From a virus: a stretch of DNA of 47,480 bases. Below are positions 9,864 to 28,368 of the stretch, in pieces; within the stretch, counting starts at the first letter, position 1; each line of letters opens with the position of its first letter. A program made the position numbers and the translations under genes. The DNA is taken from the IMG/VR virus record IMGVR_UViG_3300036795_000437, positions 1 through 47,480 of that record; one strand, written 5' to 3'. The notes under the pieces were generated by a model. That model saw nothing but the letters and a program-made list of their open reading frames with translations. It was not told the origin of the DNA and searched no databases.

Positions 9864-10742
9864 ATGAGCGATACGAAGACAATTGTGAAAGTGGACACCG
9901 GCCGACCGGCGCTTGTCGTGACCGGCGCCAGTGAGATCTCCATTCGCGGCGGCACCGCGTTCAACGGCGTCAGCTTCCAGACCGACACTCCCGTCGTCAT
10001 CGATGTGCCGCTGGAGCCAGGCGGGGATTACGGCGTCATCGTCAATGAAGGCGCGGTGGGCTATGCGCGCCTGCAGAGCGGCGCGCTCGGTGCCGACGTG
10101 CTCGGCGGCTTCCACTTCGCACCCGGCGGCAATGCCGGTGCTCGCCAGGGCGGCGACGCGGCACCGGCGATCAACCCGCATTCGCTGTGGGACGTGGCCT
10201 TCCGGCCGGCATGTCCGGATCCACGCGGCATGGCGTTGGTCGACGCGTCGTGCATGCGCTTCTGGTGCGACATCTATCTCACCAATATCGACCACCTTGC
10301 GGCAGGCACCAGCCGCCTCGGCCTCACGATCGCCGATGGCGAGGATCTGCCGAACGATCCGACTGGCGGTCGCTTCAGGCGTTTCGATTACGCCGCAGCG
10401 TGCGCGGTGATGAAGCACCACGGCAAAGGGCTGCTCGGTATCGACGAGTTCTTCGCCGCCGCCTTCGGCGTGACGGAGAAGAGTTCGGCCGATGACGAGC
10501 CCTCGGTGACGCAGCTCGATGCGTCGCGCACGAGCAAGTGGGGGATCATCCAGGCGACCGGAAACATGTGGATCTGGGGCCACGACGGCGATCCCGACGA
10601 GCCGCGTCCCTCCCTCTTTGGCGGCGCGTGGCTCTACGGCTCGGGCGCGGGCTCGCGCTGCGCGGACCTCGGCGACTGGCCGGAGCGCTCGGGCGGCGGC
10701 GTGGGTGCGCGCGGGCGCAGTGACCACCTGCAGCTTGATTAG
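9864..10742 (+). CDS. DGR target: Mtd-like variable C-type lectin-fold protein
   Basis: A 292-residue protein whose C-terminal ~175 residues resemble the major tropism determinant (Mtd) of Bordetella phage BPP-1. Features in order are LWDVAFRPACPDPRGMALV, FWCDIYLTNIDHL, an MKHHGKGLLGIDEFFAAAFG stretch, KWGIIQATGNMWIWGHD, SLFGGAW and the closing GARGRSDHLQLD. In Mtd this region is a C-type lectin fold that displays the hypervariable residues for receptor binding. Residues ~247-287 are encoded by the variable repeat. The N-terminal ~110 residues are a short beta-rich part, so the protein is shorter than Mtd as I recall it (about 380 residues). GAAGGAG precedes the ATG. The likely role is a receptor-binding tip or another displayed binder. 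Its place in the particle is not shown by the sequence. Confidence 0.9.
   Translation: MSDTKTIVKVDTGRPALVVTGASEISIRGGTAFNGVSFQTDTPVVIDVPLEPGGDYGVIVNEGAVGYARLQSGALGADVLGGFHFAPGGNAGARQGGDAAPAINPHSLWDVAFRPACPDPRGMALVDASCMRFWCDIYLTNIDHLAAGTSRLGLTIADGEDLPNDPTGGRFRRFDYAAACAVMKHHGKGLLGIDEFFAAAFGVTEKSSADDEPSVTQLDASRTSKWGIIQATGNMWIWGHDGDPDEPRPSLFGGAWLYGSGAGSRCADLGDWPERSGGGVGARGRSDHLQLD
10601..10724 (+). repeat. DGR variable repeat (VR)
   Basis: 124 bp, 82% of it identical to the core of the template repeat 563 bp downstream. There are 15 differences, of which 14 fall at template adenines (11 A to G, 2 A to C, 1 A to T). The exception is G10626 opposite T11189. The first 25 bp and the last ~25 bp (ending GGGCGCAGTGAC) are identical to TR. 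The GC-rich 3' end is the expected site where target-primed cDNA synthesis begins. It encodes residues ~247-287 of the Mtd-like protein. Confidence 0.95.
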
Positions 10743-10761
10743 CCGCCGCGACAGCGGCGGC
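10742..10761. promoter_or_regulatory. DGR target-recognition hairpin downstream of VR
   Basis: GCCGCCGC (10742-10749) pairs perfectly with GCGGCGGC (10754-10761) around the tetraloop GACA. An 8-bp GC stem with a GRNA-type 4-base loop just after the variable repeat is the cruciform element known to promote target recognition in the BPP-1 element. It starts at the last base of the target gene's TAG, 17 bases after VR. Confidence 0.8.
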
Positions 10762-10778
10762 GCTGAGGACACGCCACC

Positions 10779-11159
10779 ATGACGATCGTCAGGGACGAAA
10801 ATCGAAGTCTCGATGCCCTGGCGATCGTCGAAAAGTACGAGGCCTTCGTGCATTACGTCTATCCGATCGTCCAACGCAGTCCGCGACATCACGGCGTCCT
10901 TCGGGACGCCGTCACGGCGGAGCTGTTCGCGCCGATCGGCGAACTCTACCACGCAGCGAAGTCGAGGCAGATGTCGCGGCTCTACGCCATCGACGCCCGC
11001 TTCGCGACGCTGCGCTCCTATCTGCGCTTCCTTGTCAGAGCCGACGTGCGGATCGTGAACGGCAGGCAGCACGCGCATGCGCTCGCGCTGCTGGCCGAGC
11101 CCGGCCGCATGCTCGGAGCATGGCAACGGAAGCTCAGAGAAGGGCAGGCGGGGAAATGA
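10779..11159 (+). CDS. avd: DGR accessory variability determinant
   Basis: A 126-residue basic, all-helical protein with the size and pattern of Avd: SLDALAIVEKYEAFVHYVYP, the RSPRHHGVLRDAVT segment, SRLYAIDARFATLRSYLRFL, and a final helix GRMLGAWQRKL. In other DGRs Avd forms a pentameric four-helix-bundle barrel that binds the reverse transcriptase and the template RNA and is required for mutagenic cDNA synthesis. It lies between the target gene and TR, the classical order. Its TGA lies just before TR. Confidence 0.88.
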   Translation: MTIVRDENRSLDALAIVEKYEAFVHYVYPIVQRSPRHHGVLRDAVTAELFAPIGELYHAAKSRQMSRLYAIDARFATLRSYLRFLVRADVRIVNGRQHAHALALLAEPGRMLGAWQRKLREGQAGK

Positions 11160-11484
11160 TGCGGCCGCGTCCCTCCCTCTTTGGCGGCTCGTGGATCAAC
11201 GGCTCGAACGCGGGCTCGCGCTACGCGAACCTCGACAACTGGCCGGAGAACTCGGACGACAACGTGGGTGCGCGCGGGCGCAGTGACGACCGGATTTTGA
11301 CGCGGCGGCGATCACGGTCCCGCCGGTCCGACACGCCCGGCCGCGCATGCGGCTCGGGTCGGTGGTCAGCCCGCCGGTCCTGCTTCGGCAAACACACATC
11401 CCGGTCCGGCAGAGCGGGGCGTAGCGGACGGATCCATGGATCTGCGCCGTCGAGACCCGCGGCCGGCACACTTTCTGGAATGCC
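11160..11484 (+). ncRNA. DGR template RNA and spacer (no protein)
   Basis: The segment from the end of avd to the RT start holds TR and a 197-base GC-rich spacer. In characterised DGRs an RNA spanning the avd end, TR and this spacer is the template, and the spacer primes cDNA synthesis and binds Avd/RT. The spacer has CCGGTCC repeats that may fold. The open frame running through it is a by-product of TR resembling the target gene. Confidence 0.65.
11164..11287 (+). repeat. DGR template repeat (TR)
   Basis: 124 bp matching the variable repeat. It contains 20 adenines, 18 in the core and two near the 3' end. All core adenines lie in codons of the form AAC, GAC, TAC, ATC or GAG when read in the target frame. 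Because of this, no single or multiple adenine substitution can create a stop codon. Fourteen of the 18 core adenines differ in the current VR. Its first bases follow the avd stop codon directly. Confidence 0.95.
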
Positions 11485-12468
11485 ATGACCAAGCGATATC
11501 GCAACCTGATCGGACACATCACCGCGCCGGAGACGCTGGCGTGCGCCTACCGGCTGACGTCGCGCGGAAAGCGGCTGACCGCCGGCTATCTCGACTTCAA
11601 GGAATACGACGCGCTGAATCTCGCACAGCTCGGAGGTGAGATGCGGTCCGGCGCATATCGCGCCGGCGCGGCCCACGAGTTCATGATCTTCGATCCGAAG
11701 CAGCGATTGATCTCGGCGCTGCCGTTTCGCGACCGCGTCGCGCAGCAGGCGCTCTGTCTCATCATCGGGCCATTATTCGATCGCGCGCTCCTGCCTCGCG
11801 CCTTCGCCTGCCGGCCGGGCAAGGGCACGCATGCCGGTGCGGTCGCGCTGCAGAGCGATCTGCGGCGCCTCGGGCGCAGCGGTGCGGTCTATGCGCTCAA
11901 GACGGATTTCTCGCGCTATTTCGCGTCGATCGAGCGTGGCGCGCTGTGGCGATTGATCGAGGCCAAGATCAGCTGCCGCGCGACGCTGGGGTTGATCGAG
12001 GCCATGCTGCCGCGCGCGGGGATCGGCCTGCCGATCGGCAGCCTCACATCCCAGATCTTCGCCAACGTCTACACGGGCGCGACGCTCGATCGGCACCTGC
12101 AGCAGACCCTCGGAGAGGACTACTGGTACCGCTACATGGACGACATCGTCGTGCTCGGGCACGACAGCGCGCACCTGCGCCGGCTGAAGACGAGCGTCGA
12201 AGACTTCTCGCGCGACGCGCTCGGTCTGCGCTTCTCGAAGTGGTCGGTGCAGCCCGCGAGCCGCGGCATCAATTTCCTCGGCTATCGCATCTGGTCGACG
12301 CATAAGCTTCTGCGCCGCGACAGCGTTGTCCGCGCCCGGCGCAAGATCGCCGCTTTCCGCGCCGCCGGCGACGTCGCGCGGTTGAGGACGTTTCTTGCGG
12401 CGTGGCTCGGTCACGCGCGCTGGGCTGATAGCGCCAACCTGATCCGTAGCCTCGAGGTCGGCGCATGA
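11485..12468 (+). CDS. DGR reverse transcriptase
   Basis: A 327-residue reverse transcriptase. It shows the catalytic aspartate Asp141 in KTDFSRYFASI, the DGR-type motif 4 GLPIGSLTSQ (residues 181-190, where most other RTs have QG) and the catalytic YMDD box (residues 217-220), then GINFLGYRIW and a basic thumb. The protein makes adenine-mutagenised cDNA from TR RNA that replaces VR. The length is typical for DGR RTs and no extra domain is fused. Its TGA overlaps the ATG of the primase gene, so RT and replication proteins are translationally coupled, which is unusual. Confidence 0.95.
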   Translation: MTKRYRNLIGHITAPETLACAYRLTSRGKRLTAGYLDFKEYDALNLAQLGGEMRSGAYRAGAAHEFMIFDPKQRLISALPFRDRVAQQALCLIIGPLFDRALLPRAFACRPGKGTHAGAVALQSDLRRLGRSGAVYALKTDFSRYFASIERGALWRLIEAKISCRATLGLIEAMLPRAGIGLPIGSLTSQIFANVYTGATLDRHLQQTLGEDYWYRYMDDIVVLGHDSAHLRRLKTSVEDFSRDALGLRFSKWSVQPASRGINFLGYRIWSTHKLLRRDSVVRARRKIAAFRAAGDVARLRTFLAAWLGHARWADSANLIRSLEVGA

Positions 12469-28341: not shown

Positions 28342-28368
28342 AGCCCGGCCGTGAGGCCGGGCTTTTTT
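28342..28368 (+). terminator. Terminator between head and tail genes
   Basis: AGCCCGGCC (28342-28350) pairs perfectly with GGCCGGGCT (28355-28363) around GTGA and runs into a T-tract. It would set a high level of capsid transcript relative to the tail genes, unless antitermination carries polymerase through. Confidence 0.88.

Follow-up and report, generated by a model that had tools for sequence, protein, structure and literature searches.

The locus and its hairpin

The window, i.e. the whole stretch of DNA that we analysed, is the 47,480-nt virus record IMGVR_UViG_3300036795_000437, in which terminase, major head protein and primase genes are present. The target gene (9864-10742, on the plus strand, as are the other parts of this locus) encodes an Mtd-like receptor-binding protein, based on its matches to the Major Tropism Determinant 1yu3 (phmmer E=5.5e-47) and to the tail protein PHROG 11262 (E=1.8e-76). 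At its 3' end is a variable repeat (VR, 10601-10724), which aligns with a template repeat (TR, 11164-11287) at 88% identity, and 14 of the 15 mismatches among the 124 positions fall at a TR adenine. The accessory variability determinant avd (10779-11159) matches NCBIfam NF033474 DivGenRetAVD with 104 bits (cut-off 80) as well as Pfam bAvd. Downstream of the TR lie an RNA matching Rfam RF03022 Phage_DGR (11333-11467, 57.8 bits against a gathering score of 50) and a Brt-like reverse transcriptase (RT, 11485-12468), which is 54.9% identical to the BPP-1 brt product over 99% of the length, matches PDB 8ub7 (E=1.6e-112) and has intact IGSLTSQ and YMDD motifs. An RT with the motifs of diversity-generating retroelements (DGRs) that is close to known DGR RTs, an adenine-biased TR/VR pair, and Avd and TR-linked RNA matches above their cut-offs indicate, at the level of sequence, that a complete BPP-1-type DGR surrounds the hairpin described below.

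The VRs and TRs of close relatives share the end ..GTGAC, after which the VRs continue with CACCTG (10725-10730 in the window) and the TRs with GACC or GATC. CACCTG is kept after the VR and absent after the TR. This fixed difference resembles that between IMH and IMH* and marks the 3' boundary.

The hairpin occupies 10742-10761 and reads GCCGCCGC-GACA-GCGGCGGC. Its arms (10742-10749 and 10754-10761) form eight Watson-Crick pairs out of eight, all of them G/C, around the loop at 10750-10753. The first base of the stem is at the same time the final base of the target's TAG, which ends at 10742, and a spacer of 17 nt (10725-10741), starting with CACCTG, separates it from the VR; this spacing is also found in relatives and in BPP-1. 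The first-pass annotation had described a perfect 8-bp stem with a GACA loop that fits GRNA, and had placed it on the stop codon 17 bases past the VR. Both are confirmed by the sequence and the VR/TR alignment.

The window has 66% G+C and contains eight perfect hairpins with an 8-bp stem and a 4-nt loop, compared with an expectation of 2.35 per shuffled window. For such hairpins with a GRNA loop, the expectation is 0.075 per 47-kb window and about 6e-5 within 40 nt of the VR. Folded as single-stranded DNA, the region 10726-10780 reaches -16.3 kcal/mol (z = -4.1), and none of 200 shuffles was as good. An Rfam match to veev_FSE at 10728-10785 had only 21 bits against a gathering score of 55 and was rejected as chance.

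A hairpin/cruciform is known downstream of VR1 in BPP-1 (Guo et al. 2011, PMC3240598). The first-pass annotation had pointed to this element with its GRNA-type loop, and it is the right one. The geometry is identical. Both hairpins have an 8-bp G+C-rich stem and a 4-nt loop of the form G..A closed by C-G, both stems start on the last stop-codon base 17 nt after GTGAC, and the order Mtd/Avd/TR/Brt is the same. They differ in the stem sequence and in the loop, which is GAAA in BPP-1 (GCGGGGCC-GAAA-GGCCCCGC) and GACA in the window. In addition, the VR/TR similarity (IMH/IMH*) reaches nearly to the stem in BPP-1, whereas in the window it is recognisable only up to 17 nt before. The annotation had also spoken of a distant element; the kinship to the BPP-1 hairpin stands but the element is not very distant, given an RT 55% identical to Brt and a target matching Mtd at E = 5.5e-47.

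The hairpin falls within the description of the BPP-1 type, i.e. a G+C-rich stem of 7-10 bp kept as a structure in homologues through covariation, and a 4-nt loop reading 5'-GRNA on the sense strand, located 4-34 bp downstream of the VR. Similar hairpins are found in less closely related DGRs. Those of the Vibrio phages VHML/VP58.5, Pseudoalteromonas ACA1 and Bacillus BalMu-1 likewise have a G+C-rich stem and loops GGTA or GATA closed by C-G, but they are farther from the VR (~29-33 nt) and the RTs are only 36-40% identical. The nanoarchaeal DUSEL4 DGR hairpins (PMC4372165) are near the VR with a G...A loop as here, but the loops are three-base GRA and the hairpin lies inside the target gene.

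Conservation and covariation among homologues

We drew relatives of the RT from viral contigs, GTDB species genomes and annotated phages including BPP-1, identified TR/VR pairs via adenine-biased mismatches, and sought the best stem-loop in the 84 nt after each VR, ignoring the loop sequence. After removal of near-identical flanks, 263 VR flanks entered the main comparison and 364 a larger set. We observed a C-GNNA-G hairpin in 99 of 100 VR flanks where the RT is at least 65% identical to that of the window, in 47/51 at 45-65%, in 19/29 at 35-45% and in 31/83 below 35%, against a background of 44 in 1,251 random stretches (3.5%). The first-pass annotation would have yielded to homologues without stem and loop, and the first two of these counts tell against that outcome in the family. 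Four-base loops occur in 232 strong hairpins of the larger set; 189 of these loops are GNNA, and C-G closes 188 of the 189. In the main comparison, random stretches of the same loci gave 13 GNNA among 126 strong hairpins with four-base loops. The hairpin is absent behind TRs, where none of 108 strong hairpins has a GNNA loop (0/46 for those with four-base loops). Most of the DGR hairpins compared have the core GC-GNNA-GC, and 86 of 180 share the stop-codon offset.

Covariation in homologues had been proposed as a check by the first-pass annotation, and its outcome is positive. In a gap-free alignment of 57 distinct close hairpins, 98.2% of the cells are paired compared with 75.3% in shuffles, and changes on both sides of a pair affect 84 cells compared with 17.4 (0 of 500 shuffles reached this number). 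Such double changes occur in seven of the eight stem pairs; the eighth, adjacent to the loop, is C-G in 57/57. The conservation of the loop, also anticipated there, holds as well, since neither the G and A of the loop nor the closing C-G varies in the close set.

Hairpins picked for pairing could inflate covariation, and hence we ran a second, position-anchored test, which covers 94 close relatives and takes from each a stretch of 20 nt chosen by its distance from CACCTG, without using pairing for the choice. At offset 17, 87% of the cells are paired, compared with 27-52% at offsets 5-16 and 18-29, and a G..A loop is at exactly offset 17 in 76 of the 94. On the RT tree, pairs 2-8 each need 14-32 changes between Watson-Crick types and pair 1 needs none, although the anchoring of the hairpins leaves no room for variation in pair 1 or at the loop ends here, so that the loop-agnostic counts are the reliable ones for them.

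The covariation and the fixed closing pair and loop ends therefore show that the stem is kept as a structure and the cap as a sequence, which is what the BPP-1 mutants showed experimentally (PMC3240598). The comparative data show that the hairpin is under selection as a structure, capped on the sense strand by a sequence-constrained C-G(N)(N)A-G loop.

Association with variable repeats and possible functions

The GNNA hairpin is not limited to the VR that precedes avd, as 44 of 56 VRs other than the one nearest the TR also carry it. Forty elements have two such hairpins, whose loops agree in 30 cases but whose full sequences agree in only five, and therefore one machinery presumably works with different stems. 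With its fixed place after the VR, the hairpin belongs to the VRs, not to avd or the TR. We rejected two readings as an RNA element because the hairpin follows second VRs that are not beside avd, mostly lacks a T-tract and is absent behind TRs.

One of them, which we regard as highly improbable, is an RNA leader element controlling avd translation. The hairpin indeed sits in the short gap between target and avd, with the avd start 17 nt downstream, and it folds as RNA with -18.3 kcal/mol; but the same kind of hairpin occurs at the 44 VRs mentioned above, and 78 of 170 GNNA loops have a pyrimidine at position 3 and are hence not RNA GNRA loops.

Slightly less probable again is that the target gene is followed by an intrinsic transcription terminator or by a degenerate remnant of one. 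A G+C-rich stem directly behind a stop codon would fit it, but GCTGAGGACA follows 10761 with no T-run, a terminator scan found none at the hairpin, and a T-rich tail stands behind only 8 of the 170 homologous GNNA hairpins. Termination here would also keep transcription from reaching avd, the TR and the RT, all of them farther downstream on this strand. The same phage has a genuine terminator at 28343, which has a T-run and the loop GTGA. This one (28343-28362, GCCCGGCC-GTGA-GGCCGGGC) is located 28 nt past the major head protein ORF and is an ordinary intrinsic terminator.

An inverted repeat that arose by chance in G+C-rich DNA, or that follows from the codons at the C-terminal end of the target, has almost no probability left: 8-bp stems arise by chance about twice per window, but covariation and a conserved fixed offset, both of which speak against chance, are found in the homologues, the stem is almost wholly past the stop codon, and a codon-driven inverted repeat in avd showed essentially no excess pairing in a similar test. 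That repeat has a 9-bp stem (10891-10912, ACGGCGTCC-TTCG-GGACGCCGT) and was considered as an RNA UNCG hairpin, with TNCG loops in several relatives. We rejected it, since its codon-aligned pairing is about that of shuffled sequences, and it hence follows from the codons for H-G-V-L-R-D-A-V.

Our analysis thus favours the hairpin as the target-recognition hairpin of a BPP-1-type DGR, to which we assign a probability of roughly 93% from the comparisons above and the analogy with BPP-1. The element is genuine but belongs to a type described before, for which the rules are now sharper. In BPP-1 the inverted repeat forms a hairpin/cruciform in supercoiled DNA, the site of integration is not determined by where the hairpin lies, and stem removal, replacement of GAAA by CTTT or loop enlargement nearly abolishes homing (PMC3240598). 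Stem-loop deletion also impairs homing of a BPP-1 DGR reconstituted in E. coli (PMC12875486). By analogy, the DGR of the window may be active and its hairpin may work in the same way. Following these two studies, the inverted repeat would extrude as a hairpin/cruciform in negatively supercoiled DNA or in a transiently single-stranded lagging-strand template. The extruded hairpin would mark the DNA and hold it open beside the 3' end of the VR, and mutagenised cDNA from the TR would be joined at the opened site. Homing would persist without the hairpin, at a much lower frequency.

The loop rule and the tandem G·A stem

The rule given in 2011, a G+C-rich stem with a GRNA loop, was based on eight phage elements and one tested element (PMC3240598). 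Among 170 GNNA loops we counted A 103, G 56, C 7 and T 4 times at position 2, and A 92, C 49, T 29 and G 0 times at position 3, with GAGA occurring three times in the larger set. The rule is therefore GNNA with a strong bias and not strictly GRNA, and an RNA GNRA loop is disfavoured because of the 78 loops of the 170 that do not fit it.

We also found a second kind of stem. In 25 flanks the hairpin reads GA-NC-GNNA-GN-GA, in which precisely the third and fourth pairs counted from the loop are G·A mismatches. An example of such a stem is GGCGGAGC-GATA-GCGACGCC. A loop-agnostic search found no tandem G·A hairpin in 1,261 random stretches. The carriers are relatives at 50-72% RT identity, and records named Akkermansiaceae, Methyloprofundus, Thiothrix, Halanaerobiales and Lachnospiraceae (flanks L023, L039, L072, L073, L075, L077, L078, L080, L115, L121, L125, L131, L154, L182, L212 and others). 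The RT relatives at 54-60% identity (L070-L080) had been taken as hairpin-less, which we rejected, as most of them have the tandem G·A form that was invisible to the first search. We suppose that the mismatches are sheared pairs.

On a quick RT tree the tandem G·A state needs 15 changes, compared with 17-21 for shuffled labels. This scatter looks as though the two kinds of stem could replace each other or were swapped by recombination. One VR of the element L039 has a bulged tandem G-A hairpin and the other VR of the same element has a Watson-Crick stem.

Selection may act on more than stability, because tandem G-A stems are predicted to be much weaker (-4.8 versus -12.2 kcal/mol). Loop stability was proposed as one possibility by Guo et al., citing other work (PMC3240598). 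GNNA loops on G-C stems form a class of unusually stable DNA mini-hairpins of the d(GCGAAAGC) type, together with GNA loops (PMC4686876), and the DGR hairpins have the same GNNA loop on a G-C stem; in the accessible text of that paper the mini-hairpins are synthetic oligonucleotides studied for stability and are not linked to DGRs. If the DGR loop were a member of this class, as we propose from that text, this would account both for a closing C-G that is fixed and for a loop middle in which almost any two bases are tolerated. This argument rests on the literature because the energies of the nearest-neighbour DNA model do not discriminate loop or closing pair: in that model GACA is scarcely better than CTTT, and closing by C-G scarcely better than closing by G-C.

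Three features seem to be new, namely a closing pair that is almost always C-G, a loop that is GNNA instead of GRNA, and the recurrent tandem G·A stem two pairs below the loop. We found no description of the fixed closing C-G or of the tandem G·A stem in the open-access papers, which is weak evidence of novelty. Hundreds of natural targets now back the structural requirement via covariation, and the rule becomes C-GNNA-G with a fixed closing pair and an alternative tandem G·A stem. The sharper rule helps to locate DGR targets far from the RT and accounts for targets missed by a perfect-stem search, and the natural variants offer a means to separate a stable cap from a recognised loop in how DGR cDNA reaches its target.

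Other clades have other loops. A clade of gut-phage RTs has the five-base loops GGTCA, GGCCA and GACCA, and of 18 five-base loops, 15 have G first and A last. Archaeal elements have GRA loops. In the 364-flank set the loop class follows the RT tree, with 38 changes compared with a mean of 83 for shuffled labels. This fits a clade-specific reading machinery without proving it, as a target and an RT that descend together would produce this pattern too. A tentative and on balance doubtful hypothesis is that the DGR machinery reads the loop as an address label, which would make the loop more than a stable cap, with one label for each RT clade (C-GNNA-G in BPP-1/VHML-like elements, five-base GNNNA, mostly GGTCA or GGCCA, in a clade of gut phages, C-rich CACC in another clade, and GRA in archaea). 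The stem would be free, even to the extent that tandem G-A pairs take the place of two Watson-Crick pairs at a set distance from the loop.

The five-base-loop clade has G-rich/C-rich stems after the VR (L229, L233, L237, L244, L327, L330, L344, L346-L348, L351, L352, L355 and L356). Another clade (L219, L251, L252, L249 and L232) has the C-rich loops CACC, CCCT and CAC in long stems after the VR, and in L219 a near-identical hairpin occurs twice in tandem.
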